The notes under the pieces are model-generated. The model saw only the letters and a program-made list of their open reading frames with translations. It ran no database searches and was not told the origin of the DNA. Source: a virus. Taken from it: a stretch of 28,926 nt of DNA. Numbering within the stretch: position 1 is the stretch's first letter; each line of letters starts with the position of its first letter. The translations under genes and the position numbers were made by a program. Positions 37 through 28,926 of this stretch are shown piece by piece. The stretch is taken from positions 1-28,926 of the IMG/VR virus record IMGVR_UViG_3300027852_000140; one strand, given 5' to 3'.

Positions 37-243
37 TTAATATCTATATATTTCCCAATCTGTTGCTTCAATATCTAATAAATTAATCTTCTCTGTCTTT
101 TCTCTCTTATCATTTATTCTCCAAAAAAAACCAAAATCAATGTCTGATGTTAATTTTAAATACCACGACATAGGCTCTTTTGTATTTCTAAAAATTGCCG
201 AACCTTGTCTCATCCAAATAATTGCTTGTTGGAAATTTGCCAT
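37..243 (-). CDS. Small DUF2829-like protein (possible second Tad2-type protein)
   Basis: A 68-residue protein. Its N-terminus (FQQAIIWMRQG) and C-terminus (LLDIEATDWEIY) fit the outline of DUF2829 proteins: an EAL/AI-x2-L/M-x2-G helix, a YLKL-type strand in the middle (WYLKL here), and a terminal DxxATDWEI. DUF2829 includes Tad2, which binds and sequesters the cyclic nucleotide signal of Thoeris defence. The usual central PYI and PW-SQ-D segment is absent, so this would be a shortened or divergent member. It sits two bases after the gene ending at 246 and just before the YopX start. Function is inference from a partial motif match; an unrelated small phage protein remains possible. Confidence 0.45.
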   Translation of the reverse strand: MANFQQAIIWMRQGSAIFRNTKEPMSWYLKLTSDIDFGFFWRINDKREKTEKINLLDIEATDWEIYRY

Positions 244-8889: not shown

Positions 8890-9705
8890 TTAACCTAAAT
8901 AAGCATCCCTCCATTTAAATGTGAAATCTCCAGTATTAGCAGTATTATTTTGGATTGTAAATGTATCAATAGATTCTCCTGGCTGTAATCTCAAAAAAGA
9001 TCCATCAGTTCCAACTCTTTTTACTCTTTGTTGTACTCCATCAACAAAAGCAGAAAACAATTCTGTAAATTTAATTCCAGCAGATAAATTAACTAAAGAA
9101 ATCATTCTGATTTTTAGAGTTTGTCCACCTGAATAAGAATCCAATTTTACTTGTAAACCGTTATTTGAGTTATCAAGTATTTCTAATGAATGACCTGAAC
9201 CATTTGATGTTAATGGTATTTCTATTTCTTCAATAAATGTTTCCACACTCCCAGCATTTGTTTGACTTCCACCAGTCCAAGCCCCATTATAATCTGCTGT
9301 TTTTAGTGTGTCATCAAATAAAAGTGATACTGGGGTTACAAAAGAAGAAGTATAATCTATAAAATTAGTTCTTCCTCCTGATCTTGTTTGTTTAATATTT
9401 TGACCTAAACAAATATAAAATCTATCATTCTCAAAATATACTTTTTTTAACTTAGCTTCCGAAACATGTTTTGCTAATTCATTAAAATCATCCCTTTTTG
9501 TCACAGAAGTTGCTTCATTAAAATGTCCTTGTAATACAATAGTTTTTGGTTTTATTCCTTGCCCAGTAGAAATATAATGTAACTTTGCAAAAGGGTATTC
9601 TTTAACTTCCAAATTCATTTGGTTGTCATCATCAAAAACCATTGGATTATTTGGAAATGTAAATAAATCACTTGCATCTTCAAAATTATCTATTCTCATA
9701 TTCAT
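8890..9705 (-). CDS. Distal tail (Dit-like) protein
   Basis: A 271-residue protein after the tape measure/HNH genes and before the large hub gene, the position of distal tail proteins. It begins with a Dit-type beta segment (MRIDNFEDASDLFTFP), continues with an alternating strand region and a helix DFNELAKHVSEAKLKKVYF, and ends with the beta-rich C-terminus GDFTFKWRDAYLG. The frame is open to 9720, but the ATG at 9705 overlaps the HNH stop as ATGA, the usual arrangement here, so I take that start; the ATG at 9699 is also possible. The Dit hexamer would cap the tail tube and hold the hub. Confidence 0.6.
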   Translation of the reverse strand: MNMRIDNFEDASDLFTFPNNPMVFDDDNQMNLEVKEYPFAKLHYISTGQGIKPKTIVLQGHFNEATSVTKRDDFNELAKHVSEAKLKKVYFENDRFYICLGQNIKQTRSGGRTNFIDYTSSFVTPVSLLFDDTLKTADYNGAWTGGSQTNAGSVETFIEEIEIPLTSNGSGHSLEILDNSNNGLQVKLDSYSGGQTLKIRMISLVNLSAGIKFTELFSAFVDGVQQRVKRVGTDGSFLRLQPGESIDTFTIQNNTANTGDFTFKWRDAYLG

Positions 9706-10202
9706 TGTACATATCTCCATAAAAATCCACCAGAACTTTTAGAAACCCCAGTCAAATTATTTCCTACTGCGGAGCTTGAAATTCCTAGAACTCTATACAC
9801 ATCAGTGATACAATCCCAAGTCTTAATAAATTCACCATTTTTTTCATACTGATTTATTCTTTTGCTATTACAATTATTTTTTCCCTTTTTCCCTTGCCAA
9901 TATTTTGGGCTCACTCTAAGTCCTAAATTAAACGCATGTTTATGATTCTCACTTGCTGTAACCCACTCAAGATTTTCAACATGATTGTTTGTTTTATCTC
10001 CATCGATATGATTTACTTGTGGTTTGTTTTCAAGATTAGGTATAAATTGCTCAGCCACTAATCTGTGAACCGTTTTATTAAGTTTATTTCCATTCACACT
10101 CATTAAAACTTTTAGATAGTTTCCTCGAAAAAATTGTTTTAATTCTTTATTAGTTTTAGAGTTTAAAACTTTTCCTGTTTTAGTTATAATATAATTTACC
10201 AT
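9702..10202 (-). CDS. HNH homing endonuclease with NUMOD-type DNA-binding module
   Basis: A 166-residue protein. Residues about 5 to 40 resemble a NUMOD4-type entry strand pair. An HNH_3 core follows: VHRLVAEQFIPN, then PQVNHIDGDKTNNHVENLEW, where NHIDGDK and N--NLEW supply the catalytic and zinc-free fold residues. The C-terminal 55 residues (RINQYEKNGEFIKTW, then a helix-turn-helix GISSSAVGNNLTG) match NUMOD1/IENR1 repeats. It is free-standing between tape measure and Dit, without intron or intein signs, sharing TAAATG with the former and ATGA with the latter. Such genes spread by cutting alleles that lack them. Confidence 0.85.
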   Translation of the reverse strand: MVNYIITKTGKVLNSKTNKELKQFFRGNYLKVLMSVNGNKLNKTVHRLVAEQFIPNLENKPQVNHIDGDKTNNHVENLEWVTASENHKHAFNLGLRVSPKYWQGKKGKNNCNSKRINQYEKNGEFIKTWDCITDVYRVLGISSSAVGNNLTGVSKSSGGFLWRYVQ

Positions 10203-14675: not shown

Positions 14676-17255
14676 TTAATTTATAAATAATTTACTATCT
14701 AATTGAATTTTATTTTTAATAGTCCCATTTATTACTGACCTTTGACTTGAAACTTCCATTGTCCCAAATCCGATTCTTTCAAGATCACTTTCTATTGATT
14801 GGGCAGCAAAACCAGTTAAATTTACTGAACCAAATCCAGTTGGAATATCCAAAGGTTGACCAACTAATGCTGAATTTCCAGTTAATGTTGTAATTCCAAA
14901 ACCTGCTGGAACATCTAAAGGAACACTTGAAATTGCACTAAATCCAGAAACATCTACAATTCCAAACCCAGCCAAAACATTTCCATCCTCTAATGAATTG
15001 GCAGAATAACCAGTCAAATCAACAGAACCAAATCCAGCAGAGATATTAAGTTCACTTGTGCTTTGGGCAGCATACCCTATCGTATCAACAACTCCAAAAC
15101 CAGTTGGAACAGTTAATGTTGCACTTGATGTAGCAGAATGAGCAGTTAAATCAACAACACCAAATCCAGCCAAAACATTTGAATCTTCTAATGATTCAGC
15201 TGCATATCCGATTGTATCAACAACACCAAACCCAGCAGATACATTTAATTCAATAAATGTAGTTCCACTAAATCCTGTCAAATCAACAGAACCAAAACCA
15301 GCAGGTATATTTAAATCACTTGAAACTTCAGTAGTTGGAGAATCATAACCATTGAATAATGCTTGAACTTCATTTGTTGTAAGTGAGTTCTCATAAAAAA
15401 TCCATTCATCCATTTTACCAGCAAAATAAAAAGATGATCCTGCATTTCCATTTCTACCGATAAATAAATTTCCATCTGTACTATTTAATACATCACTACA
15501 TGGAGCAGTCACATCTAAAACACCATCCACCCATAATTTAGCAACCCCTTCTTTAACACTATATGATGATGCTATGTGTGTTTTTTCTGTGGTGATAGGA
15601 ATTGTTCCCACTAATTGAGCACCACCTAAATTTCCATTTTTATACCAAGTAATCCTAATAATATCATCCGGTGTTCTTTCTACTGCCAAATTTAATTGGC
15701 TTGTTCCATTTCTTAAAAGGAAATATCCTGAACTTAATCCAGATGGATCAATATTAACACTAAAAGCTGCTTCTCCTTTTCCTGCAAAACCAATAGGTGT
15801 TCCTGTCATATAATTTCCAGAACCATTAAACAAATAAGCTTGGTTTGGAACTGCATTAAAATCAGTCGTTAAAACTGCACCATTATTTGTCAAGTCATTC
15901 CCATTCCCAGAATCATCATTTGTATTTCCAGTAAAAGTATATTTGTTTAAAATATTTTGATTTAAAGTGTTTGAAGATCCTGCACCTGAATCATATTGTC
16001 CGGACAACATTTTAACTTCTTGATGTGCTGATGCCCTAGTATAAATCCTAAATTCATCAATTTTTCCATTGAAAAAAGAACTTAAATTATCGTAAGAAGA
16101 ACCAATTTTTGGGGCTGCCATGAAAGGAACAGCAACAACAGAACCAGAATAAACTAAATGTTCATCCTCGTAAAAATATACTGTGTCATCATTAAAAACA
16201 TAAGACAACTGTTTCCAAACTCCAAGAGTATAAGCAACACCAGTATTTACCCATGTCCCATTCCCATCATAAATAATATATGTTCCTGTTGCAGAATCAA
16301 CACCAGCACCAATTCTTTCATTTCCAACACCTGTGAAACTTTCAAAAAAATAATCTTGAGATGTTACTGCAGAAATATTTACTGAAAAGGAAATAGCTTT
16401 ATTTAATGTTGAAGTAGAAATCCCAGATAATGTAATATAATCACTTGCTCCATCAAACAAATATGCTTGGTTTGGAACTGCATTTTTATCAGTCGTTAAA
16501 ACTGCACCAGTCACAGTTCCATTATTTCCATTTCCTGAACTATCATTTGCATTTCCAGTAAAATGTAACAAAACATCAAGTGAATCATTTAAGGTTTCAA
16601 AATTATCATTTGTTGAATCATAACCAACACCAATTTCAATCGCTTCATGTGGACCTAAAATTCTACTGAAGATTCTTACTTCATCAATTTTACCAGTCAA
16701 ATATGATCCAATACTTGTCACCGCACCAACCTGAAAATCTGCATTAGAATCAAATAAAGAAGTACTTAAACCAGTTGCAGTTCCAACTAAATTTTTATCA
16801 ACATAAACTGAAAAAGAACCAGCTCCAGATTCATAAGTAACTACAATATCGTACCATTGTGAAGTGTTCAAAGTATATGGAATTGAACTATTAACTGTAT
16901 TTGTCCCATCGCTTGATGTTTCTAATTGAAAACCTAAACCATCCACATATTTTAAAAAGAAAGATTTTTGACCTGCTGCACCATATTTACTTATAATTGG
17001 GACGTCAGTTTTATTTGTTACATTTATTGATGCCGAACAAGAAAAACTATCAATTAAATCCAGCCCTGTTTGTGCTACATCAGTTATACTTAAATGGTCT
17101 GAAATTCCATTTAATAAATAAGCTTGATTTGGATTACTATTTTTATCAGTTGTTAAAACTGCACCATTATTTGTTAAATTATTTCCTGCTCCAGAACTAT
17201 CATTTGTATTTCCGGAAAAATGCCACCTTGCATTTAAATTATTATTGAGACTCAT
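14676..17255 (-). CDS. Three-LamG adhesin/decoration protein with nine 22-residue repeats
   Basis: An 859-residue protein. Three concanavalin/LamG-like domains occupy about residues 5-212, 225-422 and 434-637; each opens with FSGNTNDSSG- or FTGNxNDDSG-type sequence, has AVLTTDxN-xPNQAYL and closes with GKIDE-RI-type strands (GKMDEWIFYE in the third). From about 645 to 840 a repeat with GFG at exact 22-residue spacing occurs nine times. There is no signal peptide or membrane helix, so it is made in the cytoplasm for assembly into the virion. It sits among head genes, so it may decorate the capsid or form head fibres that bind surface sugars. It has its own TATA box 26 to 33 bases upstream. Confidence 0.7.
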   Translation of the reverse strand: MSLNNNLNARWHFSGNTNDSSGAGNNLTNNGAVLTTDKNSNPNQAYLLNGISDHLSITDVAQTGLDLIDSFSCSASINVTNKTDVPIISKYGAAGQKSFFLKYVDGLGFQLETSSDGTNTVNSSIPYTLNTSQWYDIVVTYESGAGSFSVYVDKNLVGTATGLSTSLFDSNADFQVGAVTSIGSYLTGKIDEVRIFSRILGPHEAIEIGVGYDSTNDNFETLNDSLDVLLHFTGNANDSSGNGNNGTVTGAVLTTDKNAVPNQAYLFDGASDYITLSGISTSTLNKAISFSVNISAVTSQDYFFESFTGVGNERIGAGVDSATGTYIIYDGNGTWVNTGVAYTLGVWKQLSYVFNDDTVYFYEDEHLVYSGSVVAVPFMAAPKIGSSYDNLSSFFNGKIDEFRIYTRASAHQEVKMLSGQYDSGAGSSNTLNQNILNKYTFTGNTNDDSGNGNDLTNNGAVLTTDFNAVPNQAYLFNGSGNYMTGTPIGFAGKGEAAFSVNIDPSGLSSGYFLLRNGTSQLNLAVERTPDDIIRITWYKNGNLGGAQLVGTIPITTEKTHIASSYSVKEGVAKLWVDGVLDVTAPCSDVLNSTDGNLFIGRNGNAGSSFYFAGKMDEWIFYENSLTTNEVQALFNGYDSPTTEVSSDLNIPAGFGSVDLTGFSGTTFIELNVSAGFGVVDTIGYAAESLEDSNVLAGFGVVDLTAHSATSSATLTVPTGFGVVDTIGYAAQSTSELNISAGFGSVDLTGYSANSLEDGNVLAGFGIVDVSGFSAISSVPLDVPAGFGITTLTGNSALVGQPLDIPTGFGSVNLTGFAAQSIESDLERIGFGTMEVSSQRSVINGTIKNKIQLDSKLFIN
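14736..15323 (-). repeat. Nine 66-base (22-residue) tandem repeats
   Basis: GFG tripeptides at residues 653, 675, 697, 719, 741, 763, 785, 807 and 829 of the LamG protein are spaced by exactly 22. Units read like LNIPAGFGSVDLTGFSG. Units 2-3 and 5-6 share the longer motif SLED(S/G)NVLAGFG, so a 66-residue block seems to have been duplicated. Confidence 0.75.
15822..15887 (-). repeat. LamG opening segment, copy 3
   Basis: Encodes GAVLTTDFNAVPNQAYLFNG, closely matching copies at 16449-16511 and 17106-17171 in both protein and DNA. It marks internal duplication of the LamG domain. Confidence 0.6.
16449..16511 (-). repeat. LamG opening segment, copy 2
   Basis: Encodes GAVLTTDKNAVPNQAYLFDG; nearly the same DNA as copy 3 around the sequence for AVPNQAYLF. 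Confidence 0.6.
17106..17171 (-). repeat. LamG opening segment, copy 1
   Basis: Encodes GAVLTTDKNSNPNQAYLLNG; the most divergent of the three copies. Confidence 0.6.
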
Positions 17256-18657: not shown

Positions 18658-19761
18658 TTATGGGTTAGCAATATAATTTTTTAACTTACCATGAGCTGAG
18701 AACATATTACACCATAAGTTTCCTACTGTAACATAAGCACCTACTCTTTGTAACTCATCTCTCTCAAGCATTCCTTCTTCATTACTCTCGTAAAATTGAG
18801 TCGCTAATAAAGTTGCAAAGGAAATATGTTCAGTATTCAAACCATAAATATTACCTAAAGCATTAGCAGTTGCACCATTAATCACATCTGGATCAACTAA
18901 AACTGGGATTCCATCGATAGCACCCACTCTTTGTAAAAAGTCTTGACCAGTTGTGGAAACACCATTAACTGTAAAATCTTCTCTTTTTAAATCGTATCTC
19001 ATTTGAGTATCGAATAATTCAGATAATTCTGCAGCAGTATCGGATCGTGTAATAAATACATTTAATCTTTTACCTGATTTAGCTCTTACATCATCAATTA
19101 AATCTCTAACAGCTCTAGTTGTTAAAACAGCACCAGCACCATCTAAAACTGAAGCATCAGCATCATCACCATTAACACCTAATCTATCAATATCATAAAC
19201 AGTTTGGTAGTTAGCATAAGCAGTGGCTTCATTCACATTTGAAATAATCCTATCGATTGATTCAATGTTTGTTGCAACAACAGCAGATTCACCATTTGCG
19301 TTTAATTGTTTATTAATATCTTTCATGTGGTCTAAAGCTTTATGTTTAATTTCTTCTTCATAAGAATAATCATCATCATTACCAGCATTTAAAGCAAATT
19401 GCATATCTACTCCAAATTTAACTCTAGTAGTTTTCCAAGAAACTTCTACTTTCCTTAATTCAGATGTAGCAGTTGCACCAAATGAACCACCATCAGCCAC
19501 AGAAGTTCCAGTTCCTGGAGTAAATCCTGCACCAGTTCTCATTCTAAATCCTGATTGTTTCCAAGGAGATTTAGGTAAAACTGCCCATGTAATTGTTTCA
19601 TTATTAAATTGTGTAAAAGCTTGAATTCCGTATAAAACGTTTCTTGCATCAGGTGTTCCAACTCCAAGAGTTTTCTTAACTGCAACCATATCTTTGTTAA
19701 TACCAGCGTTTTGGTATTGGTCTTTCATTAAATCATTAATTGTATATCTAGATCTTGCCAT
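18658..19761 (-). CDS. Major capsid protein, HK97 fold
   Basis: A 367-residue protein after the protease/scaffold gene, where the capsid gene is expected. N-arm region: helical RYTINDLMKDQYQNAGINKDMV. It continues with E-loop-like glycine-rich strands (RMRTGAGFTPGTGTSVADGG), a spine-helix-like segment (EEEIKHKALDHMKDINKQLNA), and a C-terminal A domain (TRAVRDLIDDVRAKSGKR, then LNVFITRSDTAAELSELF and the INGIPVLVDPD-like AIDGIPVLVDPDVI). Size and order match HK97-type capsid proteins of phages and archaeal caudoviruses. No covalent cross-link residues can be assigned from sequence. It starts two bases after the upstream stop in the AAAAATGG context. Confidence 0.8.
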   Translation of the reverse strand: MARSRYTINDLMKDQYQNAGINKDMVAVKKTLGVGTPDARNVLYGIQAFTQFNNETITWAVLPKSPWKQSGFRMRTGAGFTPGTGTSVADGGSFGATATSELRKVEVSWKTTRVKFGVDMQFALNAGNDDDYSYEEEIKHKALDHMKDINKQLNANGESAVVATNIESIDRIISNVNEATAYANYQTVYDIDRLGVNGDDADASVLDGAGAVLTTRAVRDLIDDVRAKSGKRLNVFITRSDTAAELSELFDTQMRYDLKREDFTVNGVSTTGQDFLQRVGAIDGIPVLVDPDVINGATANALGNIYGLNTEHISFATLLATQFYESNEEGMLERDELQRVGAYVTVGNLWCNMFSAHGKLKNYIANP

Positions 19762-24108: not shown

Positions 24109-26334
24109 TTAATCCTCCTTTGGTCTTGCTGTAAATATATGTCTTGTGTTTGGATGAGTGATTGGTGATTGTGGGTTCACAGTCCAATCTGATGAAACTT
24201 TATTAGCTTCAATAGCATTAACATACTCGCCCCAACTTACTCCTCCTTTCGTTTGGCTTTTAGCACCTTTCGACATTTTAGTGGTTCTTTTATCACTTGG
24301 GCCTACATGTTCAAATAAAAAATTATCAAGTCCTTTTTTTTCGTATTGGGTTAATCTTGCAGCTTCTGAAACTTTTGTTGTCTCAGTTCTAACAATAGTA
24401 TTTAATTGATTTTCGGATGCATCAACACTTTCCCCCAATTCTTTTGATAATTTATCTGGATCTATTTCTCCAGCATCAAAATGTTCTTGAATTTTAGATC
24501 TTAAATTATTTGATGTTTCTTCAGATAAATTACTAAATGCTTTATTCCATGTTGGATCTTGTTTAATATTTTCCACAACTGCTTTATCTGCATCACTCAT
24601 TGAAAACTTTTCACCAATTAATTTGGATTCTTTTTCTGCAGCTTTAGAGTAAATTGCTTTCATTTGATTTGCAGCTTTCTTTTTTAGATTTTTATTTAAT
24701 TTCTCTTCTGCTGCCTTAGTAAATTTATTCATGGCCAATTTAGTTAATTTTTTACCAAGCAAACCACCAGTCAAAACTTTTAATTCTTTCATCAAATTAT
24801 TCTCGAATTGTTCTTGGAGTGATTTTGGGACTTGATCCTTTGCTTCTTTTGGTTGATCTACTTTTTTTACTAAAGAAATATTAGATTTTTTTACTTTACC
24901 CTGGAAAACTGGTAAAGGTGGAACTGCATTTAAATCTGGTTTTTCTAAATCACCATCATTGATAATAAATTCACCTTCTTCATATCTAACATTAACACCC
25001 AAAGAAACTAACTTTTCAGCATTAGCAATCTTTTTTGCCATTAAATCAATTTCATAAGTTTGGTCCTCTTCCTTAGAAGATTTTAATTTAATTTCATAAT
25101 CAGTGATCCCCATTTGTTGAAATATCCATGGCAATACTTTTTCATTATACATTGTTTGCCTAACTTCAACAGCTCTATTTGTAACTTTAATTTGGAGACC
25201 TTCATTATTTAATCCACCTCCTCCAGTTGTATCATTATTAAAAACATTACTCACACCATAAAAGGCTGCTATTGTTCTTCTAATTTCATCCCTTACCTGA
25301 GTATATTGCATCTCATTTAAAGGTTTCATCATGTCAACAAATTCAATTAATTTTTTACCATCGGCATTATTAACCGGGATTGGATGAATTGCAGTTGGGT
25401 TTCTTGAAACTTTTTGCCTTAGAACTTTCCACCATTTAAGAATTGTATCATAATTAGTAGTATTAACAAATAAAAGACTCCTTGGTTGTCTCTCGCTTTT
25501 ATCATAATATTTTTCAATAGTATAATCCATTCCAATCATAGACATAACTTTATTATAAAGTGGTCTAATTGGTGAATGTCCTCTTGTTAAACTTGGTTCG
25601 TGTAACGATTGATGGATGATCTCTGAAGAGTTATAATATTTCCAAGTGGTTCCAGATCTAATTCTAAAATGTGCTTCCATGTTTTGTTGATTAGTGTTAG
25701 CATTCCATTTATCATAAGTCATTATACTTCTATCCTCAATATCAAAATAAATCTGTTTATTGTTAATGTCATGCCCTAGTTTATTGTCTTTGGAGAATAA
25801 GAAATCTACAAACAATGGACTCACCCTAAAAAACTCTTGAACCTCACCACCAATAATTTTACCTTTAGAATCTAAGAAATAATTTTTAGCTAGAACACCA
25901 AAACCATCATCAAAAATATCTACATCCTTCCCAAATTGCATAAACACTTCAGATAAAGATTGGTTGTTACCATTAGCTCTATGGATAAATCCTTCTGCCA
26001 ATTCTTTTTGGTCAACACTTGGGTTTTCTACAATAGGCAGTATATCATAACCTGCTCTAAAAACTTCAGAATTTACTTTACCAATAGATAATCTTAATTC
26101 TGCAGAATATAAATAAAGTTCGTATAATTGATGTTCACTATAAGGAAAATAATTTTGAGATAATACTCCTTCGTTTGTGAATTGATCTATATTTTGGTCA
26201 GGTCTCCCTGATGAAAAAACTTCTTGAATTTCCAGAACTTTTTTAATTTGTTCAGGATCTTCAAGGACCATTGCTTTTTTCGTGTCAACTATTTTCAAGT
26301 CACTTATTTTCTTAAAGGATTTTAGGATGCCCAT
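24109..26334 (-). CDS. Portal protein fused to MuF-like head morphogenesis domain
   Basis: A 741-residue protein. The first 450 residues are a portal: EHQLYELYLYSAELRLSIGK, then DDGFGVLAKNYFLDSKGKI, HEPSLTRGHSPIRPLYNKV, and RRTIAAFYGVSNVF followed by NNEGLQIKVTNRAVEVRQ. A Lys-rich helical linker leads to a MuF-type domain in the last 130 residues (NTIVRTETTKVSEAARLTQY, then GGVSWGEYVNAI and SPITHPNTRHIFTA). MuF proteins are minor capsid proteins near the portal. The frame extends seven codons upstream, but the ATG at 26334 has the AAAAATGG context and suits the TATA box at 26364; the longer start would fall inside the promoter. Confidence 0.8.
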   Translation of the reverse strand: MGILKSFKKISDLKIVDTKKAMVLEDPEQIKKVLEIQEVFSSGRPDQNIDQFTNEGVLSQNYFPYSEHQLYELYLYSAELRLSIGKVNSEVFRAGYDILPIVENPSVDQKELAEGFIHRANGNNQSLSEVFMQFGKDVDIFDDGFGVLAKNYFLDSKGKIIGGEVQEFFRVSPLFVDFLFSKDNKLGHDINNKQIYFDIEDRSIMTYDKWNANTNQQNMEAHFRIRSGTTWKYYNSSEIIHQSLHEPSLTRGHSPIRPLYNKVMSMIGMDYTIEKYYDKSERQPRSLLFVNTTNYDTILKWWKVLRQKVSRNPTAIHPIPVNNADGKKLIEFVDMMKPLNEMQYTQVRDEIRRTIAAFYGVSNVFNNDTTGGGGLNNEGLQIKVTNRAVEVRQTMYNEKVLPWIFQQMGITDYEIKLKSSKEEDQTYEIDLMAKKIANAEKLVSLGVNVRYEEGEFIINDGDLEKPDLNAVPPLPVFQGKVKKSNISLVKKVDQPKEAKDQVPKSLQEQFENNLMKELKVLTGGLLGKKLTKLAMNKFTKAAEEKLNKNLKKKAANQMKAIYSKAAEKESKLIGEKFSMSDADKAVVENIKQDPTWNKAFSNLSEETSNNLRSKIQEHFDAGEIDPDKLSKELGESVDASENQLNTIVRTETTKVSEAARLTQYEKKGLDNFLFEHVGPSDKRTTKMSKGAKSQTKGGVSWGEYVNAIEANKVSSDWTVNPQSPITHPNTRHIFTARPKED

Positions 26335-26380: not shown

Positions 26381-26866
26381 TTATTTTGTAATTGTTTTTC
26401 CAATTTCCTTATTGGCAGCAACATAAACTTCTTTCCATTTTTGTGCATCTACTTTTTGTAATTCAATAGTTTCTAATTGGTTCTTATACTTTGTATAGTG
26501 CTCAAATTTATCTAATAAATCTTTATATTTTGTGTAATCTTCAAGAGTAAACCCACCCAATTCATTTTGGAATTTATCAATAATCGGTCTTAATTGTTTT
26601 TGAGCTTCTTTAATTCTTTTCATGTTCTCATTAAATTTCTTAATGATCTTATTAAAGTTTTTCAAATCAACATATTCAACCCAATGTTGTTCAAGAGGTT
26701 CTCCATCCTCACCGATTACATGTCTTACTTTTGTAAATTTACAAAGGTTATCTTCAGTTAATGAAAATAAATATTCTTTATCTTCTCCTGCAGCTATTTT
26801 CTCTTTTATCATATCAGTAATAGGTTTTACTGATTTTAGGTCTAGGTTTGATTTTGTTTTAGTCAT
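26381..26866 (-). CDS. Coiled-coil protein upstream of the portal
   Basis: A 161-residue Lys/Glu-rich protein. Residues 40-75 look like a small beta segment (LCKFTKVRHVIGEDGEPL). From about 75 to 150 it is helical with coiled-coil spacing (KIIKKFNENMKRIKEAQK, then KDLLDKFEHYTKYKNQLE). It overlaps the Tad2-like gene's end by eight bases (ATGACTAA). A small terminase or scaffold is unlikely from the sequence. Function unknown; probably late. Confidence 0.55.
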   Translation of the reverse strand: MTKTKSNLDLKSVKPITDMIKEKIAAGEDKEYLFSLTEDNLCKFTKVRHVIGEDGEPLEQHWVEYVDLKNFNKIIKKFNENMKRIKEAQKQLRPIIDKFQNELGGFTLEDYTKYKDLLDKFEHYTKYKNQLETIELQKVDAQKWKEVYVAANKEIGKTITK

Positions 26867-27122
26867 TTATTTTTTCTTCTCTAATTTCCCAACTTCCAGA
26901 ATTAAAATCAATCTGGCTTGGTGTCCATGGTCCTTTTTCAAAAACCCAACCACCATCAACAAATGTTCCTGAGTTCATTACAATATATGGAATTGTCATT
27001 AAACTATTTTTATCTGGTCTCTGTAATGTTAAATACATAACTTTATCTTCAAAACCATTCCAATTTGTGTTGGTGATTTGTTTGCCTTGTCTTAAAAAAA
27101 TCAAAGCCTCCTCAATTAACAT
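26859..27122 (-). CDS. DUF2829 / Tad2-like protein, candidate anti-defence protein
   Basis: An 87-residue protein with the whole DUF2829 outline: EEALIFLRQGKQITNTNW, then WNG, VMYLTLQRPDKNSLMTIPY, PYIVM, GPWTPSQIDF and a terminal SGSWEI. Tad2 of phages belongs to DUF2829 and disables Thoeris by binding its cyclic ADP-ribose-type signal; many DUF2829 members are untested, so the role here is inference. The open frame reaches 27161 inside the previous gene; the ATG at 27122 (TAAAATG) is the start. It is in a four-gene group between terminase and portal with its own promoter. Confidence 0.7.
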   Translation of the reverse strand: MLIEEALIFLRQGKQITNTNWNGFEDKVMYLTLQRPDKNSLMTIPYIVMNSGTFVDGGWVFEKGPWTPSQIDFNSGSWEIREEKIND

Positions 27123-27123
27123 T

Positions 27124-27354
27124 TTAAAATTGAGGTTCTTGTGTTTCTTCTGCTGGAACATCTTCAGTAGTTTCAGCTGTAACTTCTTCAGCTATTTCAG
27201 CTTCTTCAATTACTTCTTCACAAATATATGATTTATGAGATTCTGAATTTTGACTGTTTAAAACATTCAAAATATTTTCTGCTGATTGTGCATCTTCAAC
27301 AACAACACCAATTTCTTCTATTACTTTTCTTTCACAAATTATTTTAAATACCAT
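27124..27354 (-). CDS. Acidic-tailed small protein
   Basis: A 76-residue protein. The first 45 residues look alpha/beta (FKIICERKVIEEIGVVVEDA, then a helix AENILNVLN). The rest is acidic and Thr-rich (EEVIEEAEIAEEVTAETTED), probably disordered. It starts one base after the small ribbon-helix-helix-like gene's stop (TAAAATGG) and ends one base before the Tad2-like start. The family is not recognised. Acidic partner proteins are often anti-restriction or inhibitory proteins; this is only a suggestion. Confidence 0.55.
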   Translation of the reverse strand: MVFKIICERKVIEEIGVVVEDAQSAENILNVLNSQNSESHKSYICEEVIEEAEIAEEVTAETTEDVPAEETQEPQF

Positions 27355-27355
27355 T

Positions 27356-27481
27356 TTATATTTTTAATTGGAGTAATTTTTTATATAGTGCAGCATGAGT
27401 CTTAACATTAAATGTTGACATTAAATATTTTTCTCTGTCAACTTGTTCAGGACTTAGTCTTGCTCTAATTCTTCTCTCCAT
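27356..27481 (-). CDS. 41-residue ribbon-helix-helix-like protein
   Basis: A short basic protein not easily seen by length cut-offs. The order strand (RRIRARLSPEQ), helix (VDREKYLMSTF), turn, helix (THAALYKKLLQLK) is that of ribbon-helix-helix (CopG/Arc) repressors. The TATA box at 27502-27511 is 21 to 30 bases upstream, and the stop sits in TAAAATGG with the next gene, so it opens a four-gene operon that includes the Tad2-like gene. It is a candidate for autoregulation of that operon (inference). Confidence 0.55.
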   Translation of the reverse strand: MERRIRARLSPEQVDREKYLMSTFNVKTHAALYKKLLQLKI

Positions 27482-27682: not shown

Positions 27683-28926
27683 TTATAGGTAAAAATCATC
27701 ATCAGGCATTTCAAAGCCAGGACTACTATCAAAAATACACATTGCTAAACTATCTGCAAAGTCCGGTGATTTACTTGGGTCAATTATTTTTGTTTTCCCA
27801 TTAGATTGAATTTCTTTCTTTATTACATTTAATTCAGTAAATAAAATAGTGTGGTTTAAATTCTTAATCCTTTGATCCTCAAATAATCTTCTTAAGTTTT
27901 CATACATTTGGGCTTTTTGATTTAAATAAATATGTTTATTCTCTGTTGGTGCTCTTCCAACTTTAACATCTATGACATCATAACCTTGCTCAATTAATCT
28001 ATCATAAACTCCTCTACCCAATCCTGTTGCATCAATGTTTACTCTTGTTGGGTGGTATTTTTCTATGTACTGAACAATATATCCAGTGGTTGTCATTGTA
28101 TCTTGTTTTGAAAAATCTTTTATTTCTACAATTTTATAAATATCATCTTCCAAATCGTGACCAACAACAGTAATTACTGATTTATCAATTCCCTCTTCTG
28201 CAACATCAACACCAATTAAAACTTCATGGTTTTTCTTTCCAATAGTATATTCTGCTTTTGCTGCCATTAAATCTTTAAATGTCATAAGTGCAGAATCTTC
28301 TTCATCTGGGAATATACTATCCCATAAAACTTGAAAGTGATTTGGAGTTAATAATTTCCTTTGAGAGTTCACCCACCTTTGAGTAATTCTATTTTCTTTT
28401 ATTCCTTGCTCCCAATTAATATGGATTATTTTATAGTCACCACTGATCCACATTGAATAAGCTGCTGAATCTTTTTGCCATGGATTGAATAAACCAATAA
28501 AATTAGACTCTGCCGGATTATCTGCGAGCATTCTTATAATTTTTGTATCAACAACATCTCTTTTAATCTCTGCGAGTTCATCAACAATTAAATCTCCACC
28601 TTCATCACCAAGACCCCAACCCATTAATCTTTGACCATCTCCTTCTGCAGATAAAGTTTGAACCATACAACCATTAGTAAATGTCATTCTACTTTTTGAA
28701 ACTTCTTTTTTTAATGAAGCATCTCCACTTGCACCATCAAGCATACCTCTTAAAATTTGGCAGTCCATAATTGCATTAACTAAATAATCCCTTAGAATTT
28801 TTGTTTTATCATTTGTAGGAGCCACTAAAAATATCTTTCTTCTAGTAGAGAATAAAATCCTTAAAGCCACAGCAATTCCTACCCATTGTGATTTACCATA
28901 ACGACTATGGGCTGAGATTAGTATTC
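27683..28926 (-). CDS. terL: Large terminase subunit, 5' end cut by window edge
   Basis: The motor and nuclease of DNA packaging. At the edge the frame reads SAHSRYGKS, a terminase-type Walker A with the deviant R-x-GKS, so the start lies outside. Then come KIFLVAPTNDKTK, a Walker B LIVDELAEI with the DE pair, a coupling segment, and the RNase-H-like nuclease: LIGVDVAEEGIDKSVITVVG with the first Asp, then NIDATGLGRGVYDRLIEQG with the second, and SPDFADSLAMCIF with the third. Some 413 residues are visible. A GTG in the middle of the ATPase domain (at 28870) could be taken as start, but the Walker A lies upstream in frame. Confidence 0.9.
   Translation of the reverse strand, partial: ILISAHSRYGKSQWVGIAVALRILFSTRRKIFLVAPTNDKTKILRDYLVNAIMDCQILRGMLDGASGDASLKKEVSKSRMTFTNGCMVQTLSAEGDGQRLMGWGLGDEGGDLIVDELAEIKRDVVDTKIIRMLADNPAESNFIGLFNPWQKDSAAYSMWISGDYKIIHINWEQGIKENRITQRWVNSQRKLLTPNHFQVLWDSIFPDEEDSALMTFKDLMAAKAEYTIGKKNHEVLIGVDVAEEGIDKSVITVVGHDLEDDIYKIVEIKDFSKQDTMTTTGYIVQYIEKYHPTRVNIDATGLGRGVYDRLIEQGYDVIDVKVGRAPTENKHIYLNQKAQMYENLRRLFEDQRIKNLNHTILFTELNVIKKEIQSNGKTKIIDPSKSPDFADSLAMCIFDSSPGFEMPDDDFYL

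Follow-up and report, generated by a model that had tools for sequence, protein, structure and literature searches.

A divergent Tad2-family gene between terminase and portal in a predicted archaeal tailed virus

Tad2 of bacterial phages soaks up the immune alarm molecule of the host. The locus described here raises the question whether a tailed virus of archaea carries a gene of the same family and, if so, what its product would do. We analysed a stretch of 28,926 nucleotides, positions 1 to 28,926 of IMG/VR record IMGVR_UViG_3300027852_000140 (the window), for which the original prediction had proposed a Tad2/DUF2829-like, candidate anti-Thoeris gene in an archaeal-type virus. The gene lies in an operon of small genes between terminase and portal, as had been proposed. 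In the order of the operon, the features are:

27683 to 28926, minus strand: terminase large subunit gene (terL), its 5' end cut by the contig end
27504 to 27511, minus strand: TATA box TATATAAA, 30 nt before the start codon of the 41-aa gene; archaeal promoter of the leaderless type
27356 to 27481, minus strand: product (41 aa) of the first gene of the operon, judged ribbon-helix-helix-like by eye alone
27124 to 27354, minus strand: acidic 76-aa protein of no family, 1 nt upstream of the Tad2 gene
26859 to 27122, minus strand: Tad2-family protein of 87 aa (PF11195 profile match, AF2 model, Foldseek matches to predicted Tad2-like viral proteins)
26381 to 26866, minus strand: 161-aa predicted coiled-coil protein that overlaps the end of the Tad2 gene (weak profile match to, and same position as, a gene of related viruses)
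24109 to 26334, minus strand: portal protein with a Mu-F-like C-terminal part

The open reading frame was found where predicted, running from 27122 down to 26859 on the minus strand, and its 87-aa product (MLIEEALIFLRQGKQITNTNWNGFEDKVMYLTLQRPDKNSLMTIPYIVMNSGTFVDGGWVFEKGPWTPSQIDFNSGSWEIREEKIND) contains all the named DUF2829 landmarks in the proposed order. Against the Pfam Tad2-like profile PF11195 the protein scored 39.6 bits (E 7.5e-10, profile positions 1-72 of 73), compared with a gathering score of 25 bits, and by this measure the likeness is not one of chance. A tblastn search with the protein in named phages gave matches of 34.6-41% identity, several of them annotated as DUF2829. A profile built from an alignment of 59 Tad2 members recovered all PDB chains of Tad2/AcrIIA7 (E 2e-21 to 3e-18), with no other match of weight. 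On the Pfam score, the DUF2829 matches and this recovery of PDB chains, membership of the Tad2 family is solid at the level of sequence. As a single sequence the protein matched SPO1 Tad2 only at E 0.026 (phmmer), which makes it a distant member. Neither an NCBIfam model nor a PADLOC-DB entry exists for the protein.

The short-loop branch of Tad2/DUF2829 proteins, with members in Acinetobacter phage XC38, Mycobacterium phage Curiosium and Pseudomonas phage PaBG, showed 35-41% identity to the window protein over about 90% of its length, and the motifs LQxPDxxSxMTxPYI and PW-x2-SQ-x-D are common to both. However, the window protein, from an archaeal virus, has three more residues after WNG, a longer hairpin between strands 3 and 4, and N at positions 18 and 20, where the short-loop proteins of bacterial phages have R and G. 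SPO1 Tad2 (Gp34.65; PDB 8sme, 8smf and 8smg), which binds gcADPR and inhibits type I Thoeris, shares PF11195, WNG, SQ-x-D and a terminal W-x-I with the window protein, but the pairwise likeness is marginal and the QRPD-MT-PY motif is missing from SPO1 Tad2.

The host domain was assessed from the structural genes and the promoters. The capsid gene is:

18658 to 19761, minus strand: major capsid protein of archaeal tailed-virus type (phrog_24667)

Among named phages, the capsid protein matched only haloarchaeal viruses and one Methanofastidiosa virus, and the portal protein matched only haloarchaeal viruses. The matches of TerL were mostly bacterial, and TerL is uninformative on host domain. A TTTATAAA box was present before 7 of the 14 operon-first genes, usually 29-37 nt before the ATG, and before none of the 29 internal genes; shuffled sequence gave a mean of 0.46 boxes and a maximum of 3. 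The window has a GC content of 30% and few Shine-Dalgarno motifs, and a scan for bacterial promoters gave no more matches than in shuffles. A portal profile found 162 relatives in IMG/VR and further relatives in ten contigs from MAGs or genomes, including two "archaeon" MAGs, Pacearchaeota, Methanolobus and two haloarchaea, with Haloarcula among the contigs; others carried the labels Omnitrophota, Patescibacteria and Melioribacter. A first genome scan with the portal pair gave no relatives. Elsewhere in the window, an HNH endonuclease gene (9702-10202, minus strand) lies between a tape-measure-like gene and a tail gene and is likely a homing endonuclease.

On this evidence, the virus almost certainly infects archaea, in agreement with the original prediction, and a DPANN host is likely because the nearest archaeal bins are small-genome archaea. 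That it instead infects a bacterium and carries an ordinary bacterial phage Tad2, as the bacterial labels of some portal relatives and the TerL matches could suggest, is highly improbable. The bacterial labels probably mark misbinned viral contigs, as MAG bins often hold misplaced viral contigs, while the capsid and portal matches in named phages are exclusively archaeal, the TATA boxes stand at a fixed spacing with few Shine-Dalgarno motifs, and relatives occur in Haloarcula, Methanolobus and Pacearchaeota contigs. A bacterial origin was rejected on the archaeal-only capsid and portal matches together with the TTTATAAA boxes.

The operon was then compared with that of related viruses. Its archaeal TATA box and its acidic gene, 1 nt from the Tad2 gene, were found as described, and the 1-nt spacings and the gene overlap make co-expression plain. 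The opening gene had been called ribbon-helix-helix-like: the 41-aa gene does open the operon, and L134, a relative without Tad2, has a 61-aa relative of it directly after terL (pairwise BLAST E 4e-5), but neither a ribbon-helix-helix profile nor any other in Pfam or PHROG matched the protein at E 0.1. In the relatives without Tad2, the interval between terL and portal holds changing small genes, and a coiled-coil gene of 146-199 aa precedes the portal gene. The 161-aa gene of the window matches that gene weakly and occupies the same position, and is probably a divergent member of the same pre-portal family. Since relatives without Tad2 keep both the small gene after terL and the coiled-coil gene before the portal, Tad2 seems to have been inserted into a structural-gene operon that already existed. 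Such an insertion argues against a purpose-built, self-regulated cassette, and the proposal of a "self-regulated host-counterattack cassette" is weak, the small regulator-like gene and the pre-portal gene both recurring where Tad2 is missing.

Tad2 was absent from 91 related virus records, many of them fragments, and on that account appears dispensable. One parallel was found in a Methanolobus-binned contig (NZ_JADQBY010000010.1), which has the portal, the capsid and three neck-type genes in common with the window and encodes a Tad2 of 91 aa at 16426-16701, among its head-tail genes and directly before a tail-tube-like gene. The Methanolobus and window proteins both have N18, N20 and PWTPSQ, but the Methanolobus protein has a longer middle insertion and its gene lies before the tail-tube-like gene instead of between terL and portal. 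A tree grouped the two with 100/90 support on two very long branches. This grouping may be long-branch attraction, and because of the branch lengths it was set aside as proof of common descent.

Two further strong Tad2 matches (E 2.7e-25 and 1.1e-22) were found on long chromosomal contigs among 393 genomes of the Methanolobus phylum. These two methanogen elements (proviruses) share a HerA-like ATPase and other genes, and their Tad2s fall among the bacterial-phage forms in the tree. They are related mobile elements on two methanogen chromosomes (L197, 13184-16361; L199, 8229-15211), and each encodes a canonical Tad2 along with a zinc-ribbon protein and the HerA-like ATPase. The phylum of MAG G091 gave no Tad2 in 87 genomes, and that of the Pacearchaeota MAG gave two weak, short Tad2-like forms in 327. 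None of 50 Tad2-bearing IMG/VR records had an archaeal-type capsid, but the control genomes gave no match either. Single-protein scans of viral contigs with the Tad2, the capsid and the 37-243 proteins gave no confirmed relatives. The distribution over the window, the Methanolobus contig and the methanogen elements points, on present evidence, to more than one entry of Tad2 into archaeal viruses. That the family is rare in such viruses, as had been proposed at the outset, is supported by its absence from all 91 related records and by the few archaeal parallels. The open-access literature, to which the search was confined (subscription papers lay outside its scope), gave no report of Tad2 in archaeal viruses.

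The window has a second, shorter gene of this kind:

37 to 243, minus strand: short Tad2-like protein, 68 aa (PF11195 17.7 bits, below the cut-off)

This protein is clearly related to short forms in L203, L194 and L202 (tblastn 1e-7 to 3e-4), which come from archaeal and mixed bins, and its kin include short forms in genomes of the Nanoarchaeota phylum. The short forms are without the SQ-x-D segment, and that of L194 adjoins a tail-tube-like gene of archaeal-virus type.

The neighbours of these genes bear on a different function for the window protein, in which a Tad2-fold protein would serve in the virion or in DNA packaging and have no part in counter-defence. Its gene is within the terL-portal structural block, the Methanolobus gene directly precedes a tail-tube-like gene, and the L194 short form adjoins another. 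We nevertheless regard a virion or packaging role as quite unlikely. The 91 relatives have the same structural genes and no Tad2, the terminase-portal intervals of relatives hold changing small genes, and the different places of Tad2 in the window and in the Methanolobus contig are as expected of an accessory gene.

We further checked the predicted structure and the pocket residues. The AF2 model of the window protein (mean pLDDT 88.4) showed a helix and five strands, the last of them preceded by a short helix, an order of elements that fits the Tad2 fold. Foldseek against BFVD named four of the five best matches Thoeris anti-defense 2-like (probability 1.00, best E 5e-4), whereas no solved Tad2, SPO1 Tad2 and ModTad2 included, was among the best 50 PDB matches. 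As a control, the Methanolobus protein was modelled alike: 24 Tad2/AcrIIA7 PDB chains ranked first, all Tad2 crystals were matched, and the best match was ModTad2 with His-ADPR (PDB 9eib; 41% identity, E 1.1e-8), a member of the same family that inhibits type II Thoeris. This control shows that Foldseek is able to detect Tad2, so the window protein is either more divergent or modelled less well. The Foldseek matches of the window model thus extend to predicted Tad2-like viral proteins and, among the best 50 in the PDB, not to solved Tad2 structures.

The pocket residues gave a similarly divided result. The core motifs WNG, PW-x2-SQ-x-D and the terminal W are all present. Ten positions do not vary across 57 other viral Tad2s and the Methanolobus protein, and the window protein has every one of them, W21, P65, W66, S69, Q70 and W78 included; N22, G23 and D72 are kept as well. 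On the other hand, position 18 is N in the window and Methanolobus proteins and R in 57 of the 57 other viral Tad2s, R18 being defined here by its invariance in the sampled viral members and not by a published family criterion. G20 is likewise replaced by N, K41, L74 and D77 are also changed, and the first loop after WNG has the three additional residues. A review (PMC12043709) assigns to the gcADPR pocket the loops between strands 1 and 2 and between strands 3 and 4, strand 4 itself, and helix 3 with the loop that leads to it from strand 4. Mapped by loops, these parts correspond in the window model to the WNG loop, which is altered, and to the PW-x2-SQ-x-D segment, which is conserved. The expected pocket is thus kept in its motifs and changed at R18, G20 and the WNG loop, and from the residues it is not simply intact.

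The altered first loop and N18 would also be consistent with a Tad2 fold that acts on the sponge principle with a ligand that is not a TIR product, such as a CBASS cyclic dinucleotide or another nucleotide signal. Tad2 proteins bind cyclic dinucleotides at a site apart from the gcADPR pocket, via an insertion between strands 2 and 5 (PMC12043709), and solved family members hold cGG as well as cADPR (8kbk, 8wjd). However, the short-loop branch (LQxPDxxSxMTxPY), of which the window protein is a member, is without the long AcrIIA7/SptTad2 insertion, and SPO1 Tad2 does not bind 3'3'-cGAMP (PMC11722364). We consider a non-TIR ligand unlikely.

A TIR-made signal presupposes TIR enzymes in the hosts. 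ThsB_TIR (PF08937) was surveyed in archaeal groups that have virus relatives or Tad2-bearing proviruses. The phylum to which the Pacearchaeota MAG belongs had it in 4 of 237 genomes, that of MAG G091 in 1 of 80, and the family with the two methanogen proviruses in 5 of 33. TIR_2 gave no match in the three Tad2-bearing methanogen genomes. Judged by these genes, TIR signalling exists in these archaeal groups but is rare.

In two genomes of the Pacearchaeota MAG's phylum (L208, 5807-7559; L209, 5152-6931), a TGT-like gene forms an operon with genes for a ThsB-type TIR and the octameric membrane protein 8xMP, which we propose from its gene content as a candidate TIR-signalling defence system of DPANN archaea. 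In a methanogen locus (L219, 4963-6351), from the family with Tad2-bearing chromosomal elements, a caspase-like gene immediately precedes one for a ThsB-type TIR, an arrangement that presumably resembles type IV Thoeris.

Our preferred reading, to which we assign a probability of about 0.62, is that this archaeal tailed virus uses the product of the window gene as a Tad2-type sponge against a TIR-made signal. The protein would assemble as a Tad2-type tetramer at an early stage of infection, and pockets formed by the WNG loop and by the PW-x2-SQ-x-D loop and helix would take up an ADP-ribose-type signal made by a ThsB-like TIR enzyme of the host. The sponged signal would be kept from its effector, and the host would then not abort the infection, to the presumed benefit of the virus. 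The sponge reading is supported by the family membership, the core motifs, the archaeal nature of the virus, the other archaeal Tad2s and the ThsB-type TIR genes in candidate host groups. It is weakened by the lack of a solved Tad2 among the best 50 PDB matches, the loss of R18, the E of 0.026 to SPO1 Tad2, the rarity of ThsB_TIR and the absence from 91 relatives. Established are the archaeal tailed virus, its divergent Tad2-family gene and a few independent archaeal parallels; sponge action on an ADP-ribose-type signal is likely. A bolder reading, which we consider unlikely, is that the archaeal tailed viruses have an N18/N20 branch of Tad2 of their own that now acts on another TIR product, such as the signal of the ThsB-TIR and 8xMP operon of the Nanoarchaeota phylum.

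Of interest here are the domain of the host and the altered pocket region common to the window and Methanolobus proteins. As a few other archaeal viruses carry Tad2, this counter-defence is probably used outside bacteria too. The archaeal Tad2 proteins are small and appear soluble, and the archaeal ThsB-TIR operons are concrete candidate targets. If the N18/N20 branch is real, it would be a means by which viruses of DPANN archaea counter TIR immunity. An active protein would mean that archaeal viruses, too, sponge up the signals of TIR immunity, and that the Thoeris arms race extends over both prokaryotic domains.
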